This document shows, one piece after another, positions 20,907 through 35,972 of a stretch of 64,000 nt of DNA. The stretch is from Granulicoccus phenolivorans DSM 17626 = NBRC 107789 = JCM 15570. Lineage in GTDB: Bacteria; Actinomycetota; Actinomycetes; Propionibacteriales; Propionibacteriaceae. The notes under the pieces are model-generated. The model did no database searches. It saw only the letters and a list, made by a program, of their open reading frames with translations, and had not been told where the DNA came from. Position 1 is the first letter of the stretch. Every line of letters starts with the position of its first letter. A program made the position numbers and the translations under genes. The stretch lies in the NCBI RefSeq assembly GCF_000423085.1, contig NZ_AUHH01000019.1, positions 1 to 64,000 of the forward strand, in the 5' to 3' direction.

Positions 20907-23002
20907 GCTGTCATCTCCGATTCGTGCTGCAGAAGTTCGTCGTTGTGCTCGCCCAGGACCGGGGCGGGCCGGAACGGCCGGGCGGGAGCCCAGCCCTCGA
21001 GGTTCACCAGCGGGCCGTAGCAGCCGGTGACCACCCCGAATCGTTTGTCCTCGGTGTCGATCACCAGGTGTGCCGCGCGGGCGGCCGGGTCGTCCAGGAG
21101 CCGAGCGAAGGCATCGCGCCGGGCGGGCACCGCCCAGCCGCCGATCTCCTCGACCGCGGTCACCACGGCGGTGCTGTCGCGTTCGGCGGTCCAGGCCGTC
21201 CCGGCCCGGGTCCAGGCCTCGTCGCGGACGTCGGTCGCCGGGTCCAGTCCCAGCAGCGCGGCCCAGGCCGTCCGCGTCGCCGGCTCGCGCAGCACCAGCG
21301 CGACCCAGCCGTCACGGGTGCGGTAGAGCCGCTCGAGCGGGGCGAAGCCGAGGCGTTCGCCGTCGAGCGCATCGGCGCCCTCCGCCCCGCGCAGGTCGCC
21401 CTCCCCACGCAGGAACAGGGCCGCGGCGAGCAGGCTGACATGCACGTCGACGCCGACCTGGTCGGTGGCCCGGCGGTACAGACCGGCCAGAATCCCGATC
21501 GCACCGAGGGCACCGGAGGCATAGTCGACGAACGGCGAGCGGTACCAGACCGGCTCGTTGCCCCGGCCGCCGGCCCGCTGCTCGTGGCCGCACAGGGCCT
21601 GCATGACCATGTCGAAACCGGAGTCCAGGGCCTTCGGCCCGGAATCCCCGTAGGCCGTGGTCTGCAGGTACACCAGGCCGGGGTGCCGCTCCCGGACCTG
21701 GTCGGGCCCCAGTCCGAGGCGTTCGGCCGCGCCGACCCGCATGTTGTGCATCAGCACATCGGCATCCTCGAGGAGGCGATGCAACTGTGCGCGCCCCGCC
21801 TCGGTCTTCAGGTCGAGTACCACCGAGCGCTTGCCCCGGTTGGTCGCCAGCACGTTGCGCATCCCGGTCAGGTTCGACAGCCCGGTGGGCGGGTCGACCG
21901 AGATCACCTCGGCACCCAGGTCGGCCAGCAGCTTGGACGCGAAGGGCCCGGCCACCCAGTTGCCGATGTCGACGATGCGTACGCCGGACAGCGGATCCGG
22001 CCCGGCCACGGCTTCCGTCGGGGCCGGTGCGGCGGCCCGGGCCCGGTAGCGCAGCGGCTGGGCGACCCGGAGCCGACCGGTCCGGTCGGTCTCCACCAGC
22101 CCCTGCTGGCGGACCTGCGGATCCTGCAGGGCGGCGCCGGGCGCCAGCACGGGTTCGGCGGCGATCCCGGCCGCCTTCAGCCGGGCCACCACGACGTCGG
22201 AGTCGAGTCGGGCGACGTATTCGGCCAGCAGCGGGCGGTCCCCGAAGTAGGAGTCCGCGCCCCGGCTGGCATCCGGGACGCCCCGGTCGGCCGGATCCAC
22301 CTCGCCGGGGATCTCCAGAGCTCGGTGCACCTTGGCGACCGCGCCGGGAACCCCCATCACGAACTGCACGTAGCGCCCGTCGCGACACCGGAAGATCAGG
22401 TGCCGCACGTCCAGCGGGGGCACCTTGTCGAAGTCCGGGGTGGGCCGCTGCGCCGACATCCACAGGTGGGGCCAGAACAGGGCCTGGCCCTGCTGCAGGC
22501 TCACCCGGGCGAGGGCGCCGGCGCCGGTGCGCCGACGCTGCAACAGTCCGGCCCAGGCCGCCAGGGTAGCCAGCAGGCCGGCCCCGTACAGGGTGGACCC
22601 GAAGGCGATCTGGGTGGGCCGGTCGGCGAACTGCTCGAACACGAAGCCGGTGCGGGCCTGCACCAGCAGGTCATCGGCCGGGGTCTGGTCGGTGGTCCCG
22701 GGCACGTACGCCGCGACCTCGATCACGACCTGCCCGGGGTCGCTGGGCACCTCGTGCTCCAGCGCCCCGACGATGGTTTCCCCGCCGGTGAGCACCACGT
22801 CGGCGCCGGCGACCCGGGCCTGCTCGGGGGTGAGGGTTTCCCAACCGTCCCACCAGTGCCGCAGCGCCGGGTAGCGGGCCAGCACCGCGTCGTCGGTGGG
22901 ATCGCTCACCCGCAGGATCCGCGCCCCGGCGCCGGCCAGCAGCCGGCAGGCGACGGCGGTGGGCAGCCCGTGACCGAGGTTGAGGACGGTCGGGCCGCTC
23001 AC
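20903..23002 (-). CDS. fused tandem CaiB/BaiF CoA-transferase, N-half degenerate
   Basis: A 699-residue two-half CoA-transferase, the third fusion of this type here. The N-terminal half (about 5-320) has FGSTLYGAGLL (134-144) instead of an Asp-containing nucleophile site. The C-terminal half starts near 336 (DPLSGVRIVDIGNWVAGPF) and has the likely catalytic Asp493 in SPFVDYASG. Overlaps of 4 bp join it to the Rieske oxygenase upstream and the hydratase downstream. Being second in the unit, it could place CoA on the oxygenation product. Confidence 0.87.
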   Translation of the reverse strand: MSGPTVLNLGHGLPTAVACRLLAGAGARILRVSDPTDDAVLARYPALRHWWDGWETLTPEQARVAGADVVLTGGETIVGALEHEVPSDPGQVVIEVAAYVPGTTDQTPADDLLVQARTGFVFEQFADRPTQIAFGSTLYGAGLLATLAAWAGLLQRRRTGAGALARVSLQQGQALFWPHLWMSAQRPTPDFDKVPPLDVRHLIFRCRDGRYVQFVMGVPGAVAKVHRALEIPGEVDPADRGVPDASRGADSYFGDRPLLAEYVARLDSDVVVARLKAAGIAAEPVLAPGAALQDPQVRQQGLVETDRTGRLRVAQPLRYRARAAAPAPTEAVAGPDPLSGVRIVDIGNWVAGPFASKLLADLGAEVISVDPPTGLSNLTGMRNVLATNRGKRSVVLDLKTEAGRAQLHRLLEDADVLMHNMRVGAAERLGLGPDQVRERHPGLVYLQTTAYGDSGPKALDSGFDMVMQALCGHEQRAGGRGNEPVWYRSPFVDYASGALGAIGILAGLYRRATDQVGVDVHVSLLAAALFLRGEGDLRGAEGADALDGERLGFAPLERLYRTRDGWVALVLREPATRTAWAALLGLDPATDVRDEAWTRAGTAWTAERDSTAVVTAVEEIGGWAVPARRDAFARLLDDPAARAAHLVIDTEDKRFGVVTGCYGPLVNLEGWAPARPFRPAPVLGEHNDELLQHESEMTA

Positions 23003-24306
23003 TGTGCCGATGCCTCGCCCTGGTAGATCTCGGTCCAGGAGTGTCCCTCGGCCAGTTCCACATAGCCGGCGGTGATCGGCTGCCGGGGCGCCAGGCCGCG
23101 CGGCTCTTCGCCGCGATCCACGCGCTTGGCGTTGTCGATCACGTTGCGGCGGAACCGGGCGATGGCCAGGTCGGCGGGCACCAGGTGCTCCACCGGGTAC
23201 AACTCCATCGGACCCATCGATTCACCGACTGCGAAGTCCTCGGGGATGAAGCGGTACAGCCCGGTGAAGGTGGAGCCGTCGGCCATGGCCGCGCGGTTCT
23301 GCAGCCAGTTGTTCTCCTTGCGCGGCCGATCCGGCAGGTCCTTGTACGCCCGGCCGATGCCGTGCTTGTTCTTGGCGGTGTCGTCGATGCCGTAGTACTG
23401 GAAGATCTCCTCGCGGGCGGCACCGGTGTTGATCACCCGCTGCTCGTCCCAGAAGACCATGAAGAAGTGGGTGCGCTCGGTGTCGACCGGCAGCATCAGC
23501 TGCATCAGGTTGTCCGGGGGGACCGCGACCGTGGTCGGGTAGGAGAAGGTGGTGATCCGGGCCGCGGTCCCGGAGTCGCCGTCGGGGGTGGTGAACGAGC
23601 GCAGCGCGGCGTACCGCAGGCCGAAGTCGGTCTCCTGCACCTCGATCGAGGGGGCGAGGTCCTTGGAGATCACCGCACCGGTGGAGGACCGGGCCCGGCC
23701 GGAGAAGGAGGGCGCCGGGCCCTTGCCGGTGCCGAGCAGCTTCAACGCGTCCTGGTGCAGCACGCCGGTGTGGGAGGAGTCCAGCAGCCCCTCGATCGTG
23801 CGCGACCAGTTGGCGTTGGCCACCACGATCTCCGACAGCACGTTCTCCTCGGGCAGGTCGAAGTACGGGTGGTGCGGCAGCTCGGGCTGCTGGTCGGCGG
23901 GCCCGAAGTAGCCCCAGACCAGCCCGCCCTTCTCCTGCACCGCGTAGGCGGGCTGCTTGACCCGGTCCTTGAACCGCGGATCCTGCACGTTCGGGGCCTC
24001 GACCAGGGTGCCGTCGGTGGCGTACTTCCAGCCGTGGTAGAGGCACCGCAGGCCGCCGCCCTCGTTGCGCCCCAGACACAGCGAGGCGCTGCGGTGGGTG
24101 CACAGCTCATCGAGCAGGCCCAGGTTGCCGGCGCTGTCACGGAAGAGCACGTAGTCCTGGCTGAGCGCCCGCACCGGCAGCGGTGCCCCGTCGGCGGTGA
24201 CGTCCGACGACAGCGCGATGGGCAGCCAGAACCGCTTCATCATCTTGTGCATCGGCGCCCCGACCGATACATCCATCAGCATTCGCTTCTGCTCCGCATG
24301 GTCCAT
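22999..24306 (-). CDS. Rieske non-heme iron oxygenase, large subunit
   Basis: A 435-residue ring-hydroxylating-type oxygenase. The Rieske [2Fe-2S] ligands are Cys69-x-His71 and Cys88-x2-His91; the mononuclear iron site is Asp176/His179/His184 in GLLDSSHTGVLH. No beta subunit gene follows, so it is of the alpha-only type (phthalate dioxygenase / ketosteroid hydroxylase-like). It is strongly similar to the plus-strand oxygenase at 48796-50109 (shared THRSASLCLGR, APNVQDPRFKDRV). No reductase is encoded in this unit; the one at 41966-42922 may serve it. It is the first gene after the operator promoter at 24326-24368. Confidence 0.93.
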   Translation of the reverse strand: MDHAEQKRMLMDVSVGAPMHKMMKRFWLPIALSSDVTADGAPLPVRALSQDYVLFRDSAGNLGLLDELCTHRSASLCLGRNEGGGLRCLYHGWKYATDGTLVEAPNVQDPRFKDRVKQPAYAVQEKGGLVWGYFGPADQQPELPHHPYFDLPEENVLSEIVVANANWSRTIEGLLDSSHTGVLHQDALKLLGTGKGPAPSFSGRARSSTGAVISKDLAPSIEVQETDFGLRYAALRSFTTPDGDSGTAARITTFSYPTTVAVPPDNLMQLMLPVDTERTHFFMVFWDEQRVINTGAAREEIFQYYGIDDTAKNKHGIGRAYKDLPDRPRKENNWLQNRAAMADGSTFTGLYRFIPEDFAVGESMGPMELYPVEHLVPADLAIARFRRNVIDNAKRVDRGEEPRGLAPRQPITAGYVELAEGHSWTEIYQGEASAQ

Positions 24307-24325: not shown

Positions 24326-24368
24326 CGATATTTCGTGTGATCTTACGTTATTTCGTATTAACCGGCAA
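24326..24368 (-). promoter_or_regulatory. sigma70-like promoter with duplicated CG-N6-CG operator
   Basis: Minus strand: -35 TTGCCG (24363-24368), 17-bp spacer, -10 TAAGAT (24340-24345). Elements CGAAATAACG (24346-24355) and CGAAATATCG (24326-24335) flank the -10 with a 20-bp period. The -35 half lies inside the 3' end of the upstream kinase gene. Drives the Rieske/CoA-transferase unit. Confidence 0.7.
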
Positions 24369-25679
24369 TGGTTTCGTGGCCTGCAGCACCTGCTGCATCT
24401 GCCGGGCAATCCGGTAGCGCATGTTCTGCCACAGCACGGCGTACGAGCTGGTGTACTCGATGTGTCGGCGGTCCTCCCGCATCCGGATGATGCTGTTGCG
24501 GGCCAGGTGTTGATACAACCAGATGCTGCTGAACAGCATGTAGAAATCGACCGTCGCCGGGTCGCAGTGGTAGCCGCCGTTGGCGTGGTAGACCTCGAGG
24601 AACTTCTCCCAGGTGGTCATCTGCTCGATGGTGCTGCGCAGATAGCCCAGGTCCCGGGCCGGATGCCCCAGCGAGGTCAGCTCCCAGTCCAGGACCGCGG
24701 TGAGCTCGTCCCCCTCGGCCAGGACGTTGTGGAACCCGAGATCGCCGTGCACCAGGGTGATCTTGTCGTCGATCCCGCTGACGTGGGCGTCCAGCCAGTC
24801 CAGCGCCTGCACCACGCTGGGATAGTCGTCGCAGTAGGTGTGGATCGTCTCGCGGAACTGGGCCAGCCTTTCCCGCAACTGCTCCTGGGAATGATCCTGC
24901 AGGACCAGGAAGTCACTGCTGATCTCGGCCACGTCGATCGCGTGCAGCTTACCGACCTGGGCCGCCAGGCCCAGCGCGAGCGGCTCACTCTTGGGCGGGA
25001 CGAACACATCACCGGCGGTCGACCCGGCCAGCCGCTCCATGATCAGGAAGGAGTTGCCCAGCTGTTCGGTGTCGCGCTCCAGGTGCAGCGGCTTGGGGAC
25101 CTTCAGCCCGCGGGCGTGCAGTTGGGCGAGCAGTTCGGCCTCACTGACCACAGAGGTCTGGTTCAGTTCGGATTCCTGGTCGATCCGGAAGACGACCTCC
25201 GCAGGGAACTCGGCGGCCTCGCTCATCGAGATCGCCAGGGTCGTCTTGGAGCGTCCGCCGGCCATCTGCACCACATTGTCCAGGTGCGCGGTCGCGCCGC
25301 CGCCGGGATGGTCGCGCAGGAAGGCCTCGATCCGCTCCACGTCGATGATCGCCCGGGGCACCGCGACGCCCGCCGCCGGCGGGGTCCGCAGTTCGGCGGT
25401 GGCCTGCTCGATCCGGTCGATCTCGGCCAGTTCGGCGGTCAGGTCGGCCGGTTCGGCGTACGCCCCGGCGGACTCGGCCAGCCGGTCCAGCCGCAGCGCC
25501 AGCCAGCTCAGGACCTCTTCGCAGCGGCTGGCGCGGACCGCGGCCAGCCCGGTCAGCTCGGGCTCGATCGTCCCGGTCAGGGTGTCCACACAGTTCGCGA
25601 TCACCCAGCGCGCGGTCTGCAGTTCGACCTGCAGATGGCTCAGGTGGTCCTGGGTCTTGAAGTCGGCTTCTCGGGTCAT
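24348..25679 (-). CDS. APH-fold phosphotransferase family protein
   Basis: A 443-residue protein with an aminoglycoside-phosphotransferase-like kinase domain after an N-terminal helical region of about 125 residues. The nucleotide loop is near GGRSKTTL (141-148), the Brenner motif HGDLGFHN is at 311-318 (catalytic Asp313), and the metal site DWE at 331-333. Such kinases phosphorylate hydroxyl groups on small molecules. Here it ends the P450/epoxide hydrolase unit and overlaps the lipocalin-like gene by 4 bp; a second kinase and second lipocalin-like gene lie upstream. An antibiotic-resistance role is unlikely in this setting. Phosphorylation of a pathway alcohol is my inference. Confidence 0.85.
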   Translation of the reverse strand: MTREADFKTQDHLSHLQVELQTARWVIANCVDTLTGTIEPELTGLAAVRASRCEEVLSWLALRLDRLAESAGAYAEPADLTAELAEIDRIEQATAELRTPPAAGVAVPRAIIDVERIEAFLRDHPGGGATAHLDNVVQMAGGRSKTTLAISMSEAAEFPAEVVFRIDQESELNQTSVVSEAELLAQLHARGLKVPKPLHLERDTEQLGNSFLIMERLAGSTAGDVFVPPKSEPLALGLAAQVGKLHAIDVAEISSDFLVLQDHSQEQLRERLAQFRETIHTYCDDYPSVVQALDWLDAHVSGIDDKITLVHGDLGFHNVLAEGDELTAVLDWELTSLGHPARDLGYLRSTIEQMTTWEKFLEVYHANGGYHCDPATVDFYMLFSSIWLYQHLARNSIIRMREDRRHIEYTSSYAVLWQNMRYRIARQMQQVLQATKPLPVNTK

Positions 25680-26722
25680 CGCTGTCCCTCCACATCGGCG
25701 GCCAGGGCCGGATCCAGCGGGCAGGTGCGCTCGATATGGCCGTAGACGGTCTCCCCGTCCCAGGTGTAGCGGGCCCGGCCCTCGTAGAGCCGGTTCACCC
25801 CGAGTCGGCCGGCACCGAAGGCCAGGTCGTTGGGTCGGTACTGCTCCATCGGCAGGGCCCGCAGCACCTCGACGTCGATGGTGATCTGCTGCCCGTCCCC
25901 GGTGGTCAGGTGCAGCGGGCGGACGGTGAACGGGTCATCGGGATCGGTGAGGAAGTCCGGGGTGATCTCGAAATCGGTGAAGCTCTCCCCGTCGGAGATG
26001 TAGCCCATCGCCATCACCGAGCCGTTCTCGTTGTCCCGGGTGGCCAGGATGTTGAACGAGCGGCCGGAGGGGAACACCGCGTTGCACCAGGAGTGCCGCC
26101 GGGTGAAGTCCCGGGGTCCGCGCGAGTGATCGCGTACGCCCCCGGCCTCGCGCAGGCCGAACGTGGCGGCCGGTTCGTAGCGCTCACCGAAGGTAGTGAT
26201 CTCCCCGGTGGCCCGGGTCGGCTGCTCGTGATGCATGGTGAAGGCCCGGTGGTTGACCAGGTGCTTGCCCATGTCCCACAGCGGGGCGGCGGCGGTGAAG
26301 GTCAGGTCGAAGGTGAGCGGCAGCGCCCGGCCGTCGGTCAGCGAGCCCGCGTTGACGTCGGCCTGGGTGACGTAGCGGCCGGAGCCGTTGAACTGCAGCC
26401 GCATCCGTCGGAAGGGTTCTTCGACGGTCAGCTTCAGCCCGCAGCTGCCGGGACCACCGGGGTGCGCGCCGTGCCCGAAGCCGCGGGCCAGGAAGTACTG
26501 TCCGTCGGGCAGGAAGACGATCACCGTCTCCCGCCACAGCGAGGTGTCGTAGGGCATCCGGGACAGATGGGCCCACACGCCGAGGTCCTGCTCGGTGTCC
26601 CAGGCCTGGTAGCAGTAGTTCTCGGTCCACAGCGGGGTTTCCGGCGGGTTCGGCATCGGCAATTCGATGTCGGCGGCCAGCCCGGTGGGGTTGAGGTTGG
26701 TGGTGCTGCTGTCGGTGGTCAC
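25676..26722 (-). CDS. lipocalin-like (AttH/CrtC-type) protein of unknown function
   Basis: A 348-residue all-beta protein. The GTG start at 26722 has GAGGAG about 5 bp upstream; longer frames are shadows of the dehydrogenase gene. It contains RDHSRGPRDFTRRHSW, resembling the W-x-x-D-H-x-W-G-type motif of the two-barrel AttH/CrtC (hydroxyneurosporene synthase, diels-alderase-like) fold. The product is related in style to the protein at 30493-31638. I believe these correspond to DUF7064/DUF7065-type families but cannot verify. Members bind hydrophobic ligands or catalyse hydration/cyclisation. Its pairing with an APH-fold kinase is repeated in this unit. Confidence 0.7.
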   Translation of the reverse strand: MTTDSSTTNLNPTGLAADIELPMPNPPETPLWTENYCYQAWDTEQDLGVWAHLSRMPYDTSLWRETVIVFLPDGQYFLARGFGHGAHPGGPGSCGLKLTVEEPFRRMRLQFNGSGRYVTQADVNAGSLTDGRALPLTFDLTFTAAAPLWDMGKHLVNHRAFTMHHEQPTRATGEITTFGERYEPAATFGLREAGGVRDHSRGPRDFTRRHSWCNAVFPSGRSFNILATRDNENGSVMAMGYISDGESFTDFEITPDFLTDPDDPFTVRPLHLTTGDGQQITIDVEVLRALPMEQYRPNDLAFGAGRLGVNRLYEGRARYTWDGETVYGHIERTCPLDPALAADVEGQR

Positions 26723-26730
26723 GACACTCC

Positions 26731-27828
26731 TCAGAAGGTGATGACGGGCTTGATGGCCTGACCGCTGGCAGCGGCGGCCAGGGCCTTGTTGATGTCGTCG
26801 AAGGAGTAGGTCTGGACCAGCCGATCGACCGGGAACCGGCCGGCCAGGTACAGCTCCATCAGGCCCTGGACGAACGCGGCGTTGCCGTCGCCCATCACCA
26901 CACCGTTGATCTGGGCCGCGCTCATCACCAGCGGAATGGTCGGCCAGGAGAAGACCGCATCCGGGCCGGGGGCGCCCACGATACCCAGCCGGCCCAACCG
27001 GCTGGGCAGCATCTGGGTGGCCTGCTGCAGCAGCGCGGGCACCGCGGTGGTCTCCAGGACCATGTTCGCCCCGCCACCGGTGAGCTCCTTGATGGTGGCG
27101 ACCAGGTCCTCGGTCTGCTTGCCGTTGACGACCGCACTGGCGCCCAGTTCGCGGGCCAGCTCCAGCCGGGGTTCGGACACGTCGACCATGATGATCTGCG
27201 CGGCGGCGGTGTTCACCGCGGCCATCAGCGCGGACAGCCCGACCGGGCCGGCGCCCAGGATGACCAGGCTCTCCCCGGGCTGCGGCTTCAGCACCCGCAG
27301 CACCGCACCGGCCCCGGTGACCACACCGCAACCGAGCGGGGCGAGCACCTCATCGGGCACCTCGGCCGGCGCCTTGAGCACGGTCCGCTCCTCGACCAGG
27401 GTGTGGGTGGCGAAGGTCGACTGGCCCAGGAATCGGGCCGCCAGGCCCTCGCCGTTGCGGGTGATCGCCGGGGTGCCGTCGCTGCGTACGCGCCCCCACT
27501 TCAGGCTGCTGTCGGCGCAGGTGAACTGGTGTCCGTTCAGGCACGGATCGCAGTGTCCACAGCTGGGGGCGATCAGGCCGACCTTGTCCCCCACCGCGAC
27601 GCTGGTCACCGCGGCGCCGATGGCCTCCACGATCCCGGCACCCTCGTGGCCGACGACGCTGGGAGTGGCGAACGGGATGGTTCCGTCGAGCACGTGCAGG
27701 TCCGAGCCGCACACCCCGGTGGCGGTCAGGCGTACGCGGACCTCGGTCGGGCCGGGGTCGGGGATGTCGACCTCGCTCAGCACCAGGGGCTGGTTGAGCT
27801 GTTCGAGAACGGCTGCGGTTGCTTTCAT
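26731..27828 (-). CDS. zinc-dependent alcohol dehydrogenase (MDR family)
   Basis: A 365-residue medium-chain alcohol dehydrogenase. Catalytic zinc ligands are Cys40 (GVCGSDLH) and His61/Glu62 (GHEGAG), with a further Cys in LGCGVVTG near 168; the structural zinc site is Cys90, 93, 96, 104. The NAD fold shows ILGAGPVGLS and Asp in IMVDVSEPR, pointing to NAD+ preference. It resembles aryl-alcohol / class III-type bacterial enzymes. Encoded 68 bp after the epoxide hydrolase, with a hairpin between, it could oxidise the diol or a primary alcohol made by the P450. Confidence 0.92.
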   Translation of the reverse strand: MKATAAVLEQLNQPLVLSEVDIPDPGPTEVRVRLTATGVCGSDLHVLDGTIPFATPSVVGHEGAGIVEAIGAAVTSVAVGDKVGLIAPSCGHCDPCLNGHQFTCADSSLKWGRVRSDGTPAITRNGEGLAARFLGQSTFATHTLVEERTVLKAPAEVPDEVLAPLGCGVVTGAGAVLRVLKPQPGESLVILGAGPVGLSALMAAVNTAAAQIIMVDVSEPRLELARELGASAVVNGKQTEDLVATIKELTGGGANMVLETTAVPALLQQATQMLPSRLGRLGIVGAPGPDAVFSWPTIPLVMSAAQINGVVMGDGNAAFVQGLMELYLAGRFPVDRLVQTYSFDDINKALAAAASGQAIKPVITF

Positions 27829-27863
27829 GAGGCGTCCTTCTTCGTTGGAGGGGGTGCGTGGGT

Positions 27864-27888
27864 GTCCCGGGCAGCGCCCTGCCGGGAC
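27864..27888 (-). terminator. intra-operon hairpin
   Basis: A stem of about 10 bp with one bulged base (GTCCCGGGCAG / CTGCCGGGAC) and a CGCC loop lies between the epoxide hydrolase stop and the alcohol dehydrogenase start. No T run follows. It may act as a partial terminator or mRNA-stability element that changes the ratio of upstream to downstream products. Confidence 0.4.
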
Positions 27889-27896
27889 GAGAGGGG

Positions 27897-29039
27897 TCAG
27901 GGCAGATCGGTGGCGAAGGCGATCAGGTCGGCGGCAAACACCTGCGGCTGTTCCAGGGCGCCGAAGTGGCCACCCCGCTCGGCGCGGGTCCAGCGGCGCA
28001 ACGGCACCCGTCGTTCCAGCCAGGCCTTCGGGGAGCGGTTGATCTCGCCGGGGAAGATGATCGCCCCGGTGGGGACGGTGACCCGGCCGGGCAGTTCGCC
28101 GGCCGCCATGGCCACCGCCTGTTCCCGGTAGAGCCGGATGGAGGAGGTGATGGTGTTGGTGAACCAGTACATGCTCACCACCGTCAGGAACTGGTCCCAG
28201 CTGACCGCATTGCGCAGGTCGCGCCGGCCGGTGCTGTCGGCGCAGTCGGTCCAGGCCCACCACTTGTCCAGGATCCAGGCACACCAGCCGGCCGGGGAGT
28301 CGTTCAGGGCCGGGGCCAGCGCGTCGGGCCGGGTGGACTGGATCGCCCCGTAGCCCGAGCCGATCTCGCGGATCTGCCGGGACGTCTCGAGCCAGCCCTT
28401 CTCCTCCTCGGTGACCAGGCTCATCGGGTCCTCGACGTCGGCGGGCGGGAAGGCCTGCGCGATGGTGAGGTGCAGGCCGAGCACCCGGTCGGGGAAGTCG
28501 GCGGCCAGGTGGGTGGCGACCAGGCTGCCCCAGTCACCCCCGGAGACCACGAACTGCTGATGGCCCAGGTCGGCCATAAGGTTCGCCAGCCGGCCGGCCA
28601 TCACCTTCGGGGACATCCCGGGCCCGGGCGCGGACGGGGAGAGCCCGTAGCCCTGCAGCGAGGCCGCGATGACCGGCAGGCCAGCCGCGGTGAGCAACGG
28701 GATCGCGTCCAGGAACTCCACCACCGAGCCCGGCCAGCCGTGCAGCAGGAGCACCGGCGGACCGGTGACCTGCTCCGGGGTGCCGGCCAGGTAGTGGATG
28801 TCCAGGCCGTCCACGGAGTGCAGATAGTTCGGGACGGCGTTGATCCGGTCCTCGGCGGCGGCGAAGTCGTAGCCGTCGGCCCAGTAGTCGATCAGTTCGC
28901 GCAGGTACGCCCGGTCCACCCCGTAGGACCACGGCTCGGCGGTGAATCCGTCGTCGGGCCATCGGGTTCCCGCCAGCCGGCGACGCAGCTCGGCCACGTC
29001 GCCGGCGGGGAAGCTGACCCGCACCGGTCGGGAGGTCAT
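27897..29039 (-). CDS. epoxide hydrolase (alpha/beta fold, EHN domain)
   Basis: A 380-residue epoxide hydrolase with the N-terminal EHN-type segment (AELRRRLAGTRWPDDG) before the catalytic domain. HGWPG (100-104) supplies the oxyanion site, the nucleophile is Asp169 in SGGDWGS, and the general base is His358 in GGHFGALEQP. The nucleophile is Asp rather than Ser, which supports epoxide rather than ester hydrolysis. The ATG at 29039 overlaps the kinase stop by 4 bp. With the P450 at the head of the unit, the simplest reading is epoxidation followed by hydrolysis to a vicinal diol. Confidence 0.92.
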   Translation of the reverse strand: MTSRPVRVSFPAGDVAELRRRLAGTRWPDDGFTAEPWSYGVDRAYLRELIDYWADGYDFAAAEDRINAVPNYLHSVDGLDIHYLAGTPEQVTGPPVLLLHGWPGSVVEFLDAIPLLTAAGLPVIAASLQGYGLSPSAPGPGMSPKVMAGRLANLMADLGHQQFVVSGGDWGSLVATHLAADFPDRVLGLHLTIAQAFPPADVEDPMSLVTEEEKGWLETSRQIREIGSGYGAIQSTRPDALAPALNDSPAGWCAWILDKWWAWTDCADSTGRRDLRNAVSWDQFLTVVSMYWFTNTITSSIRLYREQAVAMAAGELPGRVTVPTGAIIFPGEINRSPKAWLERRVPLRRWTRAERGGHFGALEQPQVFAADLIAFATDLP

Positions 29040-30496
29040 CGCAACGCTCCGTAGGTGCGATCGATCGCCGCGTGCAGGTTGCGCGCCAGCACCAGCTCCA
29101 TCCGGGAGAAGGTGTCGATCGAGGTCACCAGCATGTCGATGCTGGTGTGCCGACCGGCCACCACGTCCCGGGCGACCGAGGCGCACAGCGAGGCGTTGCG
29201 CAGCTGGCTGAAGATCGAGAAGAACTGGATGTCCTCCTCGGCCACCTGCTGCCCGCCGTGGGCGTGATAGTGCGCCAGGAAGTCCGCCCAGGGCATCAGT
29301 CGCTCGACCGCGGGCCGGGCGTACGCCAGGTCCTCGGCCGGATGTCCCGGGTGGGCGAACTCCCAGTCGACCAGTCCGGTCAGTCCGTTCTCGTCCAGCA
29401 TCACGTTGTGCAGCGAGGCGTCCCCGTGCACCATGATCGGGTCCCCGCTGAGTTCGGCGGCGTGCTCGCTGATCCAGGCGTGGCCGAGTTCGACCGCGAC
29501 CGAGGACTGCGGTTCACAGTCCCGCCACATCTGCTCGATCTTCGCGCGGGCCGATTCCACCAGCTCGGGCAGGGTGGCCGCCGGCAGGCCGAGATCGGCC
29601 AGGGTGACCGAGTGCAGCCGGCCCAGGGCCTCGGCCAGCGCCAGCGGTCCCTCGTTGCCGCCCTCGGTGTCGAAGATCATCCCGGCCGCGGCTCCGGAGA
29701 TCCGCTCGGAGACCATGAACGGCTTCCCGAACACCGACCGGTCGGCCTCCAGCAGCAGCGGCGTGGGGACCGGTACGCCGGCGGCGTGCAGGGCCTCCAG
29801 CAGCGGGAACTCCTCGACCACGGTGTTGTCGAAGTTGTCGGTGTCCATCCGGATCACCGCTCCCCCGGCCCAGCCCTGCGGACCACCGGTGGTGTCCAGC
29901 AGGTAGGTGTGCTTGGACTGACCGCCGACCAGCGCGGTGACCCGATCGACCCGGGGCGCCGCGTCGCCGAGGCGCCCCTGCAGCCACTGGTTCAGTGCCT
30001 CGGGGGTGACATCGGCCGCATCGACCTGCTCCCCCTCGAAGCCCTGGGCAACCGGGTGGGTGTCCTTGGTCGCCTCGATCGCCTTTTCCAACTCTTCCCG
30101 GCCGTCGTGGTCGGTGGCCGCGACCTGCCGGAACAGGGCCAGGATCCGGTCCCGGTCGGCGCCGTCGCCGGTGCGCAGTTGCTGCGCCAGCTGACGGATC
30201 CGCTCGGCGAGCACGGCATCGGAGGCGGGTTGTCCGCTGGGGCCGCCGAGGAGTTCCTCGGCGGTCCGCAGTTGCTGCTGATGTTCCCCCTGGTGGTCGG
30301 CCAGGATGTCGTCCAGGCACGTTTCCAGGGTGATCAGCCGGACCAGGGCCATGTCCAGCTTGGTCGCGGTCCGGCGACGCAGGGTGTCGGTCTCCTCGGG
30401 ATTGCGCAGGGCCGCTCCCGCCTCACGAACCAGCCGCAGGATCAACCCGCTGGGCATCGTGGCGGTCTTGGCCCACCCGGTTGCTCGTTCGTTCAA
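29036..30496 (-). CDS. APH-fold phosphotransferase family protein, long N-terminal region
   Basis: A 486-residue protein read from a TTG start at 30496 that overlaps the preceding stop (TTGA) and has GGAGG 10 bp upstream; an ATG 13 codons later lacks a ribosome site. Residues 1-160 are a charged, helical extension; the kinase domain follows with the nucleotide loop GGQSKHTYLL (191-200), the Brenner motif HGDASLHN (357-364, catalytic Asp359) and DWE (377-379). It is a distant paralogue of 24348-25679 and likewise sits next to a lipocalin-like gene. Substrate unknown; a hydroxylated pathway intermediate is plausible. Confidence 0.83.
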   Translation of the reverse strand: MNERATGWAKTATMPSGLILRLVREAGAALRNPEETDTLRRRTATKLDMALVRLITLETCLDDILADHQGEHQQQLRTAEELLGGPSGQPASDAVLAERIRQLAQQLRTGDGADRDRILALFRQVAATDHDGREELEKAIEATKDTHPVAQGFEGEQVDAADVTPEALNQWLQGRLGDAAPRVDRVTALVGGQSKHTYLLDTTGGPQGWAGGAVIRMDTDNFDNTVVEEFPLLEALHAAGVPVPTPLLLEADRSVFGKPFMVSERISGAAAGMIFDTEGGNEGPLALAEALGRLHSVTLADLGLPAATLPELVESARAKIEQMWRDCEPQSSVAVELGHAWISEHAAELSGDPIMVHGDASLHNVMLDENGLTGLVDWEFAHPGHPAEDLAYARPAVERLMPWADFLAHYHAHGGQQVAEEDIQFFSIFSQLRNASLCASVARDVVAGRHTSIDMLVTSIDTFSRMELVLARNLHAAIDRTYGALR

Positions 30497-31638
30497 CTTG
30501 CGTAGTCCTCCAGGCCGTACCGCTTGTTGGGCCCGACCACCATCATCGGGGAGTGGCCGAAGCCCTCCTCGCCGCGGATGCGGACCTTGACCGGCTGTTC
30601 GCGGTGGTAGGGGCGCAAGGTGGATCCGTCGGGCATGATGACGTTCTCCGGGTGCGAGACGTCGTACTGATCGGTCTCCACGCTGAGCTCGTGACCGCGC
30701 CAGTAGCCCAGGCCCTTGCCGTCGTTCCAGCCGGCGTCGTAGCCGGTCCCGCGGTAGACCCAACCCCGGCCCATCGCGGTGACGTCGAGGTCCCAGGTCT
30801 CGCCGTTGGCGGTCTTGGCCTGCAGCTTCATCGCCGAGAACACGTGCGTGTCGGGCACGAAGGTGAGCTGGTGCTCCAGGGAGACCACCTCCGACTCCAC
30901 CCCGTCGGCATCCTTGAAGGCGCCGTCGACGTAGAGGGTCTTGCCGTTCTCGTCCTCGATGGTGAAGAAGAAGCCGGAGTAGGAATCGGTGGCGAAGCCG
31001 CAGTAGACCAGCAGGATGCCCAGGCCACCGGCCCGGCTCGAGCTCGGGATGCCGCCGCGAGCCTTCTGCCCGGTGAACGGTTCGAAGCCGCCGACCCCGG
31101 GGCGGACGCCCCAACTGTGGTCGCGCCAGCCGAACCACCGGTCGAACTGGTGCTCGTTGCCGTCGACCACGATCGACCCGGAGGTCCAACCGACCTGGCT
31201 GAAGCGACGGTAGTCCTGGTGCACCCGGCCGTTCGCCTCGCCGTAGTGCGGGTTCTCCGAGCGGGTGAAGACCGGCCGGAAGGTGAGGTCGAACGCGTCG
31301 CCGTACTCGTTGGGCTCACAGATCATCCGGGTGACCTTGAACGGTTCGGGGAACTCGGTGCGCATCGGCCCCAGCTGCAGCGGCTCCACGATCGGGTGCA
31401 GCGGTCGGGAGAAGCGCATGTTGCGCTGCCACTTCGAATCCACCTGGGTGGCGGCAAACCCGTCCATCACGTTCAGGTTCTTGTAGACCGCCAGGCCGCT
31501 CAGCAGGCCGACGTTGCCGTCGGGCGAGTAGAGGGTGTAGGAGTAGCGGTCGTAGAAGCGATGGTCGGTGAAACCCGATTCACCGAAGGGCTTGGGGACT
31601 TGGTGATAGAGGGACTCGTCGTAGGAAATCAGTTCCAT
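30493..31638 (-). CDS. lipocalin-like (AttH/CrtC-type) protein of unknown function
   Basis: A 381-residue predicted two-barrel beta protein. The segment WFGWRDHSWGVRP is the clearest family mark and closely matches the W-R-D-H-S-W-G motif of AttH/CrtC-type proteins. It follows the P450 gene by 10 bp and overlaps the kinase gene by 4 bp. A second member of this type is at 25676-26722. No signal peptide is visible, so it is probably cytoplasmic. Possible roles are binding of a hydrophobic substrate, hydration or cyclisation; none can be chosen from sequence. Confidence 0.7.
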   Translation of the reverse strand: MELISYDESLYHQVPKPFGESGFTDHRFYDRYSYTLYSPDGNVGLLSGLAVYKNLNVMDGFAATQVDSKWQRNMRFSRPLHPIVEPLQLGPMRTEFPEPFKVTRMICEPNEYGDAFDLTFRPVFTRSENPHYGEANGRVHQDYRRFSQVGWTSGSIVVDGNEHQFDRWFGWRDHSWGVRPGVGGFEPFTGQKARGGIPSSSRAGGLGILLVYCGFATDSYSGFFFTIEDENGKTLYVDGAFKDADGVESEVVSLEHQLTFVPDTHVFSAMKLQAKTANGETWDLDVTAMGRGWVYRGTGYDAGWNDGKGLGYWRGHELSVETDQYDVSHPENVIMPDGSTLRPYHREQPVKVRIRGEEGFGHSPMMVVGPNKRYGLEDYAS

Positions 31639-31648
31639 GTCCGCCTCC

Positions 31649-32857
31649 TCAGGCGTTCGCGTACAGCTTGGCGCCGGCGGTGAACTTCACCGGTACGGTC
31701 AGCGCGCCGCGGTTCTGGTCGATGTTGGCGCCGATCACGACGTCACCGTTCAGTTCGTAGTCCGGCATCCGCTCCAGCACCCGCTGCAGGGTGACCTTCA
31801 TCTCGACGCGGGCCAGGTGCTCCCCGACGCAGCGGTGGATGCCGTGGCCGAAGGCGACGTGCGGGTTGTTGCCGCGGTCCAGCCGGAACTCGCTGGGGTT
31901 CTCGAACTTGGCCGGGTCGGTGTTGGCCGCGCCCCAGGTCAGGCCGACCGCGTCGCCCTCCTTGATCTGCACCCCGAACAGGTCCATGTCCTGGGTCGCG
32001 GTGCGGCCCATCAGCTGCACCGGGGACTCCAGCCGCAGCGCCTCCTCCACGGCCGCGTCCAGCAGGGACGGATCGTCGAGCAGCTGCTGCTTGATCTCGG
32101 GGTGGGCGGCGACCAGCCACAGGATCGAGCTGATCCCGTTCACGGTGGTCTCGTGGCCGGCGACGACCAGGGTGACGGTGGTCCACACCGCCTTCTGGTG
32201 GGTGATCGGTTCCCCGTTGACCACACCGCGGGCGATCTGGACGGCCAGGTCGTCGCGATCGGGGCCGGCGTTCTCTGCCTCGGTGACGATCCGGTCGGTC
32301 AGCCCGAACACCGCCATGTTGGCGGCCTTCTTGCGCTCCAGGTCACCGCTCATCGCGGCCTCGTTGAGGTCGTGGGTCAGGCTGACCATCGCCTTGGCGT
32401 CGTCGGGCGAACCCAGGATCGAGGCGATGATCGCCGGCGGGACCGTGTTGGCGATCTCGCGCAGGTCACCCTCGCCGCTCTCGATGAAGCGGTCGATCAC
32501 CTTGTCGGTGACTTCGGCGATCCGCCCGGCCCACTTCTCGGCGGCCTCGGGCCGCAGCTCGGGCACCAGCAGCCGGCGGTAGTGCCGGTGCATCGGCGGG
32601 TCGACCTCGACCGGGATCGGGGTGAAGGCGCTGCCCAGGCGCGGGATGGTGCATCCCTTGCCCGAGATCAGCTGATCGGTGTTGGTCGCAGCCTGCTTCA
32701 CCTGGTCGTAACCGGTGATGGCCCAGTAGCCCCCGAGGTCATCGCCCCGGGCCACGGTGCCGGATGAGGCATCGCGCACCTTGGCGTATCCGGCGGCGGC
32801 GTCGTGCGCGCTGTTGATTTCGCCGAGGTGAATAGTGGGGCAACCGTGATCGGACAT
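31649..32857 (-). CDS. cytochrome P450
   Basis: A 402-residue soluble bacterial P450. I-helix AGHETT at 233-238, ExxR at Glu272-Arg275, and the heme loop FGHGIHRCVG (336-345) with Cys343. The ATG at 32857 is chosen because GGAAGG precedes it and it fits the spacing to the operator seen in the other units; an ATG at 32884 lies within the promoter. No ferredoxin or ferredoxin reductase gene accompanies it, so electrons must come from elsewhere. It is first in the unit and likely performs hydroxylation or epoxidation ahead of the epoxide hydrolase. Confidence 0.93.
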   Translation of the reverse strand: MSDHGCPTIHLGEINSAHDAAAGYAKVRDASSGTVARGDDLGGYWAITGYDQVKQAATNTDQLISGKGCTIPRLGSAFTPIPVEVDPPMHRHYRRLLVPELRPEAAEKWAGRIAEVTDKVIDRFIESGEGDLREIANTVPPAIIASILGSPDDAKAMVSLTHDLNEAAMSGDLERKKAANMAVFGLTDRIVTEAENAGPDRDDLAVQIARGVVNGEPITHQKAVWTTVTLVVAGHETTVNGISSILWLVAAHPEIKQQLLDDPSLLDAAVEEALRLESPVQLMGRTATQDMDLFGVQIKEGDAVGLTWGAANTDPAKFENPSEFRLDRGNNPHVAFGHGIHRCVGEHLARVEMKVTLQRVLERMPDYELNGDVVIGANIDQNRGALTVPVKFTAGAKLYANA

Positions 32858-32885
32858 GGACGTCCCTTCCGTCTTCTTTGACATA

Positions 32886-32928
32886 CGGTATTTCGCGTTA
32901 GATTACGAGATGTCGGCTTTAGTGTCAA
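32886..32928 (-). promoter_or_regulatory. sigma70-like promoter with duplicated CG-N6-CG operator
   Basis: Minus strand: consensus -35 TTGACA (32923-32928), 17-bp spacer, -10 TAATCT (32900-32905). Elements CGACATCTCG (32906-32915) and CGAAATACCG (32886-32895) flank the -10. The upstream MFS gene ends inside this site: its last codons and TAA stop are operator sequence. Confidence 0.72.
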
Positions 32929-34354
32929 TGGCTTCCGTGCTTTGGGAGCGCGGCCGGCAGGCCAACCCCAGGACGGCGACCGCCGCTACAAGCAGCGCTG
33001 TCCCAGCGAGAATGAGTGCCCGGTGCAAGCCGGCCACGAAGGCATCGCGGACGACCGGATCGCGGCTGATCTGATTTGCGTCCGAAATATCGGAGAAAAT
33101 GACCGCACCCATGATGGCGACCCCGATCGCCTGGCCGAACTGCTTGGCGACGTTGCTGAGGGCGGAGACCATGCCGGTCCGCGAGGCCGGGACCGCGCCC
33201 AGCGCAAGCGCGGTCACCGGGGCCAGGGTGCAGCCGATGCCGACCCCGACCACGATCAGGGACAGCCCCATCTGCCACAACGGCGTGTCGGTGCCCAGCC
33301 GGGTGAGCAGCAGCATGCCGGCGCCGGTGATGAACAGTCCGACGGTGAGCGGGCGCGCGGCGTCGATCCGGCGCATCAGCGCGCCGATCACCGGGCTGGT
33401 CAGCGCCATCGAGATGCCGGTGGCCGACAGGGCCAGGCCGACCTCGCCGGAGCCCCGGCCGAGCACGCTCTGGCCGTAGATGCTCAGGTAGACCATGCAG
33501 CCCACGAACGCGAAGAACGTGGTGAAGCCGCCGATCAGCCCGGCCAGGAAGCGGGGCTCGCGCAGCAGCGGCAGATCGACCATCGGGTCGGGTGTCGTCC
33601 GCTCCCGCAGGATGAACCCGATCAGCAGGACCACCGCGGCCACGCCGGCCGCCAGAGCCGGCCACGCCGTGACGCCCAGCTCCTGGGCGAGCAGCACGAA
33701 GATCACGGTCGCGGCCAGCGTGCCGCCGCCGAGCAGTCCCCCGGGCAGGTCGAGCGTACGCGGGGGGCCGGGAGCGCCCGGGCGCAGAATGATCCAACCC
33801 AGCAGCCCCAGCAGCAGCGTCAGCCCGGCCACCGCCCAGAAGATCGAGCGCCAACCCCCGAGCTGGATCAGCAGACCACCCAGGGTGGGCCCCAGCGCGG
33901 TCGCCACTCCGGAGGTGGCCGACCACAGGCCGAGGGCGAAGGCCCGCCAGCCCGGGTCCCGGAACGTGCTCCCGAGCAGGCCGAGACTGCTGGGCGTGAG
34001 CAGGGCCGGGCCGATCGCCTGGATCACCCGCCCGCCCAGCAACATCGGCATACTGCCGGCGAAGCCGCAGATCAGCGCGCCGAGGGTGAAGATCGCGGCG
34101 CCGATCAGGAAGATCCGCTTGTGCCCGAACCGATCGGAGATCCAGCCGCCGAACAGCATGGTGGCCGCCAGCGTCACCACGAAGACGGCCACCACGGCCT
34201 GGAGTTCGACCGCGCTGGCCCCGAGTTCGACGCCGAGCCCGGGCAGGGCCAGGTTGGTGCTGTTGGTGGACATCACCGCCAACGCCAACGACCCGGCCAC
34301 CACCACCAGGCTCAACCACGCCCGCGCCGTGGGCCGTGGCTCCGCCGACCTCAC
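32903..34354 (-). CDS. MFS transporter, DHA2-like (14 TM)
   Basis: A 483-residue major facilitator protein with about 14 hydrophobic segments. Motif A-like GGWISDRFGHKRIF follows TM2 and the antiporter-type motif C region (LGPTLGGLLIQLGGWRSIFW) follows TM5, placing it with drug:H+ antiporter family 2. The GTG at 34354 overlaps the SDR stop (GTGA). It is the last gene of the 15-gene unit that starts at 48437. It may export a toxic intermediate or import the aromatic substrate; DHA2 family members are usually exporters. Its 3' end overlaps the next promoter. Confidence 0.9.
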   Translation of the reverse strand: MRSAEPRPTARAWLSLVVVAGSLALAVMSTNSTNLALPGLGVELGASAVELQAVVAVFVVTLAATMLFGGWISDRFGHKRIFLIGAAIFTLGALICGFAGSMPMLLGGRVIQAIGPALLTPSSLGLLGSTFRDPGWRAFALGLWSATSGVATALGPTLGGLLIQLGGWRSIFWAVAGLTLLLGLLGWIILRPGAPGPPRTLDLPGGLLGGGTLAATVIFVLLAQELGVTAWPALAAGVAAVVLLIGFILRERTTPDPMVDLPLLREPRFLAGLIGGFTTFFAFVGCMVYLSIYGQSVLGRGSGEVGLALSATGISMALTSPVIGALMRRIDAARPLTVGLFITGAGMLLLTRLGTDTPLWQMGLSLIVVGVGIGCTLAPVTALALGAVPASRTGMVSALSNVAKQFGQAIGVAIMGAVIFSDISDANQISRDPVVRDAFVAGLHRALILAGTALLVAAVAVLGLACRPRSQSTEAIDTKADIS

Positions 34355-35160
34355 TGCTGTCGGTTCGCCGGCTGCGTACTCGGCAACGGGGTCACCATGG
34401 AGATGCCGCCGTCGACGGGGAGTTCGACCCCGGTCACATAGCCGGCCAGATCCGAGAGCAGGAACAGCGTCACCGCGGCGATGTCGTCGGGGAACCCGGT
34501 GCGGCGCAGCGGGATCGCCCGGGTGACGGTCTCCAGCACCGAGGTGTCCGGGTTGGGGTCGCCGCCCGACGCCAGGATCCGGCCGGTGACGATCCCGTTC
34601 ACCCGTACGCCGGCCGGCCCGAACTCCGCGGCGGCCGCCTTGGCCAGATGATGTTCGGCCGCCTTCGCCGCCCCGTACAGGCCGAGCCGCCGGGTCTGCG
34701 CGACCCCGGCCAGGGACCCGATGAAGACCGCGGAGCCGCGGCCCCGGGCCGCCAGTCGGGGCAGCCCCAGCTGGGTGACGTAGACCGCATGGCGCAGCAC
34801 CAGGTCGAACTGCTTGTCGTAGGACTCCGCGGTGGAGTCGGCCAGCATTTCCGGCACGGTGGCACCGACGACGTCGACGATGCCGTAGAAGGCATCCCCG
34901 AACTCGGCCTCGGCGCGATCGAAGACGGCGGCCACCTGGTCGCGATCGGTGACATCGGCGCTCATCGCAATGCCGCCGACCGCGTCGGCGGTGGCCTGCG
35001 CCGCGTCGGCGGACAGGTCCACCGCGAGGACCCGGCCACCGGCGTCGGCGATCGCGCGGCAGACCTGGCCGCCGATCCCGGCCCCGGTGCCGAGCACGAC
35101 CACGCCGCGTCCGGCCAGGCTGAGTCGCTGGGAGTAGTTGGTTTCGACGTTCTCACTCAT
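34351..35160 (-). CDS. SDR family oxidoreductase
   Basis: A 269-residue classical SDR. Cofactor motif GTGAGIG (24-30), Ser149, and Tyr162-x3-Lys166 are intact; the usual NAG is VVGAT here (97-101). The C-terminal GYVTGVELPVDGGISM is typical. The ATG at 35160 was preferred to longer frames because it follows the previous stop by 11 bp and begins at the natural N-terminus. Last enzyme before the MFS gene; probable hydroxy-intermediate dehydrogenase. Substrate unknown. Confidence 0.88.
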   Translation of the reverse strand: MSENVETNYSQRLSLAGRGVVVLGTGAGIGGQVCRAIADAGGRVLAVDLSADAAQATADAVGGIAMSADVTDRDQVAAVFDRAEAEFGDAFYGIVDVVGATVPEMLADSTAESYDKQFDLVLRHAVYVTQLGLPRLAARGRGSAVFIGSLAGVAQTRRLGLYGAAKAAEHHLAKAAAAEFGPAGVRVNGIVTGRILASGGDPNPDTSVLETVTRAIPLRRTGFPDDIAAVTLFLLSDLAGYVTGVELPVDGGISMVTPLPSTQPANRQQ

Positions 35161-35171
35161 TGTCGTCCCTC

Positions 35172-35972
35172 TCAGAACTCGTCGCACCAGGGGCGGATGT
35201 CCATCTCCTGGGTCCAGATCGTGCGCGGCTGGCAGGCGATGTTCCAGAAGGTCTCGGCGATCAGTTCGACCGGAACCATGCCGTCCTTGCCGCGCGCTTC
35301 CTTGGCGTGCGGGAAGGCGCTGTTCAGCCGGTGCCCGTCGATCGCGCCGTGCACGATCAGGTTGGCCACGTGGATGTTGCGCGGGCCGAACTCGCGCGCC
35401 ATCGACTGGGCCAGGGCCCGCTGGCCGAACTTCGCCGAGGCGTACGCCGCCAGCTTCGGCCGGGCGATGACCCCGGAGATCGAGCCGGTGAACAGCAGCA
35501 CGCCACCGCGCTCGCCGTCGACCATCCGCTGGGCGGCTTCCCGCATGGTGAGGAAGGAGCCGAAGCAGTTGGTCCGCCAGACCTGCTCGAAGAACTCCGC
35601 GTCCATGTCCAGGTGCGACTGGCGCCACTGCGACCCGCCGGCGTTGTAGGCGACCAGCACCAGCGGCTCGGACAGGGAGTCGATGATGTCCAGCGAGCTC
35701 TTCAGGCCCGCTTCGGTGCCGACGTCACCGACGCCGACCGAGACCTGACCCCCGGCGGCGCGGATGGCCTCGGCGACCTTCTGCAGCTTCTCCTCGGTCC
35801 GTCCGGTGATCACCACGTGCAGCCCTTCGGCGGCGAACTTCATTGCGGTGGCCGCACCGGTGCCCTCCAGGGCTCCGACGCCCACCACCCAGGCCACCGA
35901 GCCCTTCGGCGGGGGGCCGCCCAGCGCCGGCCATCCCTGGTACTCGTAGGCCTCATCGGTCGGTTTTGCCAT
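35172..35972 (-). CDS. SDR family oxidoreductase
   Basis: A 266-residue SDR with a modified nucleotide motif (VGVGALEGTGAA, about 30-41), NAGG at 110-113, Ser164 and Tyr177-x3-Lys181. A 24-residue extension with the string EYQGWPALGG precedes the fold. The gene starts 51 bp after the aldehyde dehydrogenase. It is more divergent than the other SDRs and lacks the usual C-terminal DGG, ending in RPWCDEF. It may reduce an aldehyde or ketone formed in ring cleavage; no substrate can be stated. Confidence 0.87.
   Translation of the reverse strand: MAKPTDEAYEYQGWPALGGPPPKGSVAWVVGVGALEGTGAATAMKFAAEGLHVVITGRTEEKLQKVAEAIRAAGGQVSVGVGDVGTEAGLKSSLDIIDSLSEPLVLVAYNAGGSQWRQSHLDMDAEFFEQVWRTNCFGSFLTMREAAQRMVDGERGGVLLFTGSISGVIARPKLAAYASAKFGQRALAQSMAREFGPRNIHVANLIVHGAIDGHRLNSAFPHAKEARGKDGMVPVELIAETFWNIACQPRTIWTQEMDIRPWCDEF

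Follow-up and report, generated by a model that had tools for sequence, protein, structure and literature searches.

The window analysed here is a stretch of 64,000 nucleotides from the actinomycete Granulicoccus phenolivorans DSM 17626 (contig NZ_AUHH01000019.1, positions 1 to 64,000). It contains a unit of seven co-directional genes on the minus strand (24348-32884), which encodes two APH-fold kinases (APH1 and APH2) and two AttH/CrtC-like proteins, here named LIP1 and LIP2, together with a cytochrome P450, an epoxide hydrolase and a zinc alcohol dehydrogenase (ADH). An earlier note on this DNA described the unit as duplicated kinase/lipocalin-like pairs, in which hydroxyl groups are phosphorylated, perhaps as leaving groups for an elimination. 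All genes named there were found on the minus strand by Pfam matches and motifs. The span given there was confirmed as well, except for its end at 32857, which is an internal methionine of the P450 gene reaching 32884. The genes of the unit are:

31649-32884, minus strand: cytochrome P450 (Pfam p450, 1.8e-32)
30493-31638, minus strand: LIP1, 25-phosphosteroid-lyase-like AttH/CrtC-fold protein, proposed phospho-lyase (Rv3169_fam, PDB 9fzn)
29036-30496, minus strand: APH1, APH-fold kinase with N-terminal extension (Pfam APH, 8e-27)
27897-29039, minus strand: epoxide hydrolase, EHN and Abhydrolase_1 (Pfam EHN, 3.5e-30)
26731-27828, minus strand: zinc ADH (Pfam ADH_N, 4e-23; ADH_zinc_N, 4.9e-23)
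25676-26722, minus strand: LIP2, DUF7064-family AttH/CrtC-fold protein, proposed second phospho-lyase (Pfam DUF7064)
24348-25679, minus strand: APH2, APH-fold kinase, sister paralogue of APH1 (Pfam APH, 6.5e-28)

As had been noticed before, each kinase gene overlaps a neighbour; these overlaps, of 4 nt each, lie at the LIP1/APH1, APH1/epoxide hydrolase and LIP2/APH2 junctions. APH1 probably starts at TTG 30496 rather than at ATG 30457, since its homologue in Arthrobacter hankyongi has the same 4-nt overlap with its LIP1 and has in common with APH1 the WAKT stretch that precedes this ATG. Among solved structures, the best relatives of the P450 are P450cin and a CYP125 ancestor, which are nearly tied. 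The epoxide hydrolase contains HGWPGS, GGDWGS and GGHFGAL, which we take to be motifs of this enzyme class.

LIP1 displays the motif WRDHSWGVR, which includes D173, and LIP2 the motif VRDHSRGPR, which includes D198, so that both carry the RDHS-type motif reported earlier and both keep its aspartate. The nearest solved relatives of LIP1 are the structures 9fzn, 9g2i and 9g4c of 25-phosphosteroid lyase (25-PSL), with 9fzn as the best match (E=1.1e-26). Here, 9g2i holds phosphate and 9g4c holds phosphate as well as the alkene desmost-1,4-diene-3-one; in the alignments, the shared motif has N in the 9g4c sequence where 9fzn has D. Against the NCBIfam family Rv3169_fam (NF053593), LIP1 scores 274.9 bits at a cut-off of 150, and R172, D173 and G177 are invariant in all 82 aligned LIP1-type sequences. 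By family score and motif aspartate, LIP1 can be placed in the Rv3169_fam/25-PSL group, which predicts the elimination of phosphate. The idea of phosphorylation as leaving-group activation, with a lipocalin-like protein as the eliminating partner, is thus supported by the 25-PSL relatives and by the phosphate and alkene in 9g4c.

LIP2 scores 41.2 bits against Pfam DUF7064 (gathering score 24.7) and 24.3 bits against Rv3169_fam, which is below the cut-off of 150, and for this reason it is assigned to DUF7064 and not to 25-PSL. In the LIP tree, LIP1 and LIP2 fall into two separate clades (support 100/100 each); in the kinase and LIP trees, the LIP1/APH1 pair of the window makes up a separate long branch together with A. 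hankyongi and the locus L041. The assignment of LIP1/APH1 is suggested by homology, that of LIP2/APH2 by gene context and motif.

Both kinases are far above the Pfam APH cut-off of 23.2 (95.0 bits for APH1, 98.5 bits for APH2), and the catalytic motifs HGD-x4-N and DWE are intact in both (HGDLGFHN/DWEL and HGDASLHN/DWEF). The closest solved sequence is ACAD11 in either case (APH2: 2.4e-16). A profile built from the kinases of the window and of A. hankyongi ranks ACAD11 first, followed by 3dxp, 9o56, the kinase 25-HSK (9fsg) and Rv3168 (3ats), all of which stand above every hygromycin, capreomycin and macrolide kinase among the matches listed. A specific relation to 25-HSK was not found, as ACAD11 scores higher (87.9 versus 45.6 bits). 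Among 76 kinases compared, APH1 and APH2 are sisters (support 99/90). Since the kinases are sisters and the LIP proteins belong to separate clades, a kinase was duplicated and its copies came to stand beside lipocalin-like partners of two families. A simple tandem duplication of the whole kinase/LIP pair is rejected by the kinase and LIP trees, which corrects the duplicated pairs of the earlier note.

Both kinases also carry N-terminal extensions of 110-150 residues; a DUF6285/LvaB-like domain was considered for these, and Pfam gave no match.

The linkage of kinase and LIP1 extends well beyond the window. Among 394 genomes sampled from the class, 103 have a LIP1-type gene, the window genome being one of them. 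The 80 LIP1-type neighbourhoods studied are neither random nor independent: 60 were taken, with a few omissions, from the upper part of the match list and 20 from further down, and several share a genome. As controls, 40 stretches elsewhere in the same genomes were used. An APH kinase was found in 68 of 80 loci and in none of the 40 controls (69 of 80 if the length cut is relaxed, which adds a contig-end fragment in L067); 67 of the 68 lie on the strand of the LIP1-type gene, and in 49 of 80 loci the distance is at most 300 bp on the same strand. The APH profile used was refined on neighbourhood hits, which favours the neighbourhoods; a profile built solely on the two kinases of the window matched, in its first round, 72 open reading frames in 81 neighbourhoods (A. 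hankyongi included). The identity matrices of LIP and APH correlate with r=0.931 over 68 pairs, the highest of 2000 permutations being 0.143, and this correlation is partly common ancestry. The other enzymes are less enriched, with the P450 in 20/80 loci versus 4/40 controls, the epoxide hydrolase in 1/80 versus 0/40 and the ADH in 4/80 versus 1/40. Therefore, P450 and hydrolase are no general feature of LIP/APH pairs.

Eleven LIP1-type loci lack any APH kinase, and in three of these (L057, L071, L108) a phosphoenolpyruvate (PEP)-utilising enzyme is encoded directly upstream on the same strand. The LIP protein of L108 groups with an APH-paired LIP protein (support 100/100), so the activating enzyme has apparently been replaced there. 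In the long open frame of L007, a kinase/lyase fusion was considered and dropped: no kinase match was obtained, and the residues before the lyase appear to come from reading through another frame.

For LIP2-type genes, 20 neighbourhoods were taken from the 38 matches listed. In 17 of these, the gene of an activating enzyme adjoins the LIP2-type gene or lies within about 2.5 kb: an APH kinase in four, an adjacent EcKL kinase in one, a PEP-utilising enzyme in six and a sulfotransferase in six; of the others, one has a weak, distant kinase and two have none. Each partner family was absent from all 40 controls, where the seeds of the sulfotransferase and EcKL profiles came from the very loci studied and those of the PEP-utiliser profile from a plasmid of M. 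avium. The EcKL gene lies 18 bp from the LIP2-type gene. The PEP-utilisers are 4-54 bp away in five loci and 806 bp in one, which places 5/6 within 60 bp on the same strand, and the sulfotransferase genes range from an overlap to a distance of 120 bp, on the same strand in 6/6. The tree implies that PEP-utilising partners were gained or lost three times or more on the starred branches. Reading was then extended to 15 more LIP2-type loci, ten of which had already been seen with 1.5-kb flanks, and to five refetched loci. Here, an APH kinase lies about 2.4 kb from the LIP2-type gene in four RD-motif loci of a single genus, and a sulfotransferase is present in seven RI[KR]R loci and, at a greater distance, in L235 (RVRR).

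PEP-utilising enzymes resembling PEP synthase or pyruvate phosphate dikinase stand beside AttH/CrtC-like genes in L057, L071, L108, L196-L198, L201, L202, L204 and L226, mostly in loci without an APH kinase.

When motif and partner are tabulated for 40 LIP2-type loci, the motif R-D-H-[ST] is present in 18/18 loci with a phosphate-type partner and R-I-[KR]-R in 13/13 loci with a sulfotransferase, to which the RVRR of L235 is added (marked unread in the table). No crossover occurs, and eight of the 40 have no clear partner, among them L227 with an opposite-strand APH gene about 4.7 kb away. In the 14 sulfotransferase loci (L210-L215, L231-L238), a Sulfotransfer_3 gene lies near the DUF7064-like gene, and in 8/14 CysD-like and CysNC genes, for the synthesis of 3'-phosphoadenosine 5'-phosphosulfate (PAPS), are found near the pair. 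CysD and CysNC occur in 0/18 RD-motif LIP2 loci, 2/80 LIP1-type loci and 0/40 controls; such clustering is what would be expected if sulfation were stoichiometric.

From the families, motifs, operon order, synteny and co-occurrence observed, we infer the reactions, their order and the class of substrate as follows. The P450 and the epoxide hydrolase would place hydroxyl groups on the substrate, and those open to oxidation would be oxidised by the ADH and by a short-chain dehydrogenase/reductase (SDR) and an aldehyde dehydrogenase (ALDH) encoded nearby. Two hydroxyls which cannot be oxidised, by analogy tertiary ones, would be phosphorylated by APH1 and APH2. LIP1, and probably LIP2, would bind the phosphate ester and expel the phosphate, with the aspartate of the R-D-x-S motif taking part, leaving an alkene that the neighbouring Rieske oxygenase, CoA-transferase and enoyl-CoA hydratase (ECH) may process further. 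That the LIP protein would be the one to expel the leaving group is proposed because all four partner families are able to convert a hydroxyl to a leaving group, the AttH/CrtC-like protein is the constant member, and 25-PSL provides a worked example. It is rather probable that a single catabolic operon of the window contains two modules for ATP-dependent dehydration, in which the LIP partner is a leaving-group lyase with an exchangeable activating enzyme.

A broader claim, for which the chances appear to be even, is that the AttH/CrtC-fold families Rv3169 and DUF7064 are general alcohol leaving-group lyases. Taken as one, this claim would have the activating enzyme swapped between APH kinase, EcKL kinase, PEP-utilising dikinase-like enzyme and PAPS sulfotransferase with its own PAPS supply, R-D-H-S going with phosphate and R-I-[KR]-R with sulfate; both modules of the window would be included, LIP2/APH2 as the DUF7064 case. 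Ordinary oxidation comes to a stop at tertiary and other unreactive alcohols. If the pairs act in the way proposed, dehydration paid for by ATP, and perhaps by sulfate, would be widespread and more than a curiosity of anaerobic cholesterol degraders, a readable motif would predict the leaving group used, and the DUF7064 proteins and the adjoining genes annotated as "phosphotransferase family protein" would receive a testable role.

Several observations weigh against the reading of the LIP proteins as leaving-group lyases. The co-occurrence of kinases with the lipocalin-like proteins in other genomes, on which the earlier note had made its proposal depend, is clear for LIP1 and less clear for LIP2: a strong APH is present in only 4/20 LIP2-type neighbourhoods, at 126 bp in L203 only and at 1.4-2.5 kb in the other three, and of the ten RD/APH loci, six (L207, L208, L239-L242) belong to a single genus. 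Nor does one partner strictly exclude another: in L226, PEP-utilisers occur along with an APH on the opposite strand, and in L225 the adjacent APH is joined by a PEP-utiliser about 4 kb off. The sulfotransferase loci form one clade in the tree, so that a single joint change of motif and partner may lie behind the pattern, and a Fisher test of motif versus partner overstates the evidence for this reason. In three RIRR loci (L228-L230) no sulfotransferase was found. These are DUF7064-like genes with the motif RIRRAG, and L228 and L230 adjoin luciferase-like monooxygenases. Neither an APH kinase nor a PEP-utiliser was detected in 8/80 LIP1-type loci; four of these (L243-L246), refetched at 20 kb, contain none of the four families, as is the case for all refetched RD-motif loci (L243-L247), and three of the remaining four (L042, L060, L119) are cut by contig ends. 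Finally, the window genome has a third AttH/CrtC-like gene (L161, contig C48, 13132-14190) with the motif RDRS beside the gene of an FAD-dependent oxidoreductase, and none of the four activating families lies within the 20 kb read around it.

A sequence comparison of LIP2 with the PDB gave no significant match. The AF2 model of LIP2, of middling confidence (mean pLDDT 69.4, built from 4 sequences), shows an AttH/CrtC fold, for which pericyclases, AttH and 25-PSL score alike (Z 21.5-23.4): Diels-Alderases, with the pericyclase 7e22, reach 23.4, AttH 2ich 22.8 and 25-PSL 21.8 (9g4c_B, rmsd 3.7, 275 aligned), with kievitone hydratase at 19.6. The modelled fold would fit a pericyclase or AttH as well as 25-PSL and does not fix the function, and the binding or cyclisation considered in the earlier note is possible for LIP2. 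Together with the few strong APH kinases near LIP2-type genes, this tie could mean that LIP2, perhaps along with LIP1, works as a hydratase, cyclase or isomerase on an intermediate that carries no phosphate, and that the kinase is linked through a shared pathway only. To our knowledge, no activating partner is known for kievitone hydratase, the pericyclases CghA, Fsa2 and Phm7, or AttH 2ich, which share the fold of the LIP2 model. However, 13 of the other 16 LIP2-type neighbourhoods have a different enzyme able to make a hydroxyl a leaving group, and the motif varies with the type of leaving group, which makes such a role improbable.

The rank of ACAD11 among the kinases suggests another assignment, in which APH1 and APH2 phosphorylate 4-hydroxyacyl-CoAs in the manner of LvaA and ACAD11, the phosphate is taken off by an acyl-CoA dehydrogenase (ACAD) encoded in the cluster, and some other task, for instance hydration or binding, falls to the LIP proteins. 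ACAD genes number at least three in the window, as do CoA-transferase genes, and ACAD10/ACAD11 and LvaA/LvaC operate in this manner (PMC12440821). The kinases are related and phosphate is the leaving group in catabolism in both cases; there, a flavin-dependent ACAD eliminates it, whereas the candidate of the window is an AttH/CrtC-fold protein. No ACAD is fused to or adjoins either kinase, the neighbours being LIP1 and the epoxide hydrolase for APH1 and LIP2 and the Rieske oxygenase for APH2, and it is a LIP gene that overlaps each of them. LIP1 is also related to a phosphate-eliminating lyase, and an APH kinase stays nearby in most loci that were picked by LIP1 alone. This assignment is therefore regarded as unlikely. 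Antibiotic or sugar kinases, which the earlier note had named as the outcome that would speak against its idea, or protective kinases, in each case unconnected with the elimination, are highly improbable. The APH fold itself, a tie for the best structural match that includes antibiotic and homoserine kinases, and weak NCBIfam matches to APH(3') (APH_3p, 50.6 and 37.6 bits, below the equivalog cut-off of 205) would agree with such a function. These low NCBIfam scores and the sequence ranking, in which antibiotic kinases follow the catabolic ones, disfavour it, and the catabolic operon is conserved in two genomes; by sequence, both kinases resemble catabolic more than antibiotic kinases. A fold comparison does not separate the two, as homoserine kinase, APH(9), 3dxp, 25-HSK and Rv3168 are tied at Z 19-20 for the APH2 model (mean pLDDT 58.5, below 50 for residues 1-110).

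Returning to the dehydration modules, the chemistry itself is not the undescribed branch that the earlier note had thought possible. ATP-dependent dehydration of steroid side chains by 25-HSK and a then-unidentified lyase has been published (PMC8449060, PMC11061730), as has the elimination of phosphate in the catabolism of 4-hydroxy acids via their acyl-CoAs (PMC12440821). In Sterolibacterium denitrificans, 25-HSK (PDB 9fsg, 9ft5) and 25-PSL (9fzn, 9g2i, 9g4c) likewise combine an APH-fold kinase with an AttH/CrtC-fold lyase, the motif aspartate is kept, and the dehydration of the alcohol is ATP-dependent, as predicted for the window. There, the hydroxyl originates from a Mo-dependent hydroxylation with water and the 2021 paper reported no lyase candidate close to the kinase gene (PMC8449060); in the window, P450 and epoxide hydrolase are present instead, the kinase and LIP genes overlap, and there are two modules. 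The mycobacterial pair Rv3168/Rv3169 was compared via the family score, where LIP1 exceeds the NF053593 cut-off, and via the solved kinase Rv3168 (3ats), which is among the closest; the trees included neither sequence. What looks undescribed is only this substrate and the wider swapping of partners. In the open-licence literature, neither partner swapping nor the motif switch was found in print, and the search returned nothing on DUF7064. Of 50 papers there that touch on AttH/CrtC with sulfotransferases or phosphotransferases, the 10 listed do not address the subject, judging by title and opening of the abstract; phosphosteroid lyase occurs in two papers, as does the 25-HSK/25-PSL pair.

The unit continues on both sides with further genes:

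20073-20906, minus strand: ECH, downstream, conserved (Pfam; same order in A. hankyongi)
20903-23002, minus strand: CoA-transferase III, about 700 aa, downstream, conserved (Pfam; same order in A. hankyongi)
22999-24306, minus strand: Rieske oxygenase, downstream, conserved (Pfam; same order in A. hankyongi)
32903-34354: major facilitator superfamily (MFS) gene, outside the A. hankyongi run
34351-35145, minus strand: SDR, upstream, in the conserved core (Pfam; synteny)
35172-35972, minus strand: second SDR, upstream, outside the A. hankyongi run (Pfam)
36024-37466, minus strand: ALDH, upstream, in the conserved core (Pfam; synteny)

In the named genome collection, a search reaching close relatives only found one LIP1 relative, that of A. 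hankyongi (71% identity). Here, the genes follow in the order ALDH, SDR, P450, LIP1, APH1, hydrolase, ADH, LIP2, APH2, Rieske oxygenase, CoA-transferase, ECH and a second CoA-transferase, at about 50-77% identity; the MFS gene, the second SDR and some others of the window are absent from this run. Since the genes of the unit keep their order there at 50-71% identity, the arrangement is not due to chance. The same 120-kb stretch of A. hankyongi also holds many other catabolic genes of the window, namely a TRAP transporter, MmgE/PrpD, a third CoA-transferase, a Rieske system with reductase, a citryl-CoA-lyase-like gene, an acyl-CoA ligase, an amidohydrolase, three RraA-like genes and RidA. The unit therefore belongs to a large catabolic cluster present in two genomes. 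The TRAP transporter and the CoA-transferases suggest an organic acid as substrate; relatives of the P450, NCBIfam matches of the neighbours and the open-licence papers listed on A. hankyongi and on the cluster, the latter 12 of 263, gave no identification. In the window, the catabolic supercluster extends from 5259 to 48503, with the TRAP transporter, three long CoA-transferases, Rieske oxygenases, RraA-like and citryl-CoA-lyase-like genes, and is mostly common to A. hankyongi.

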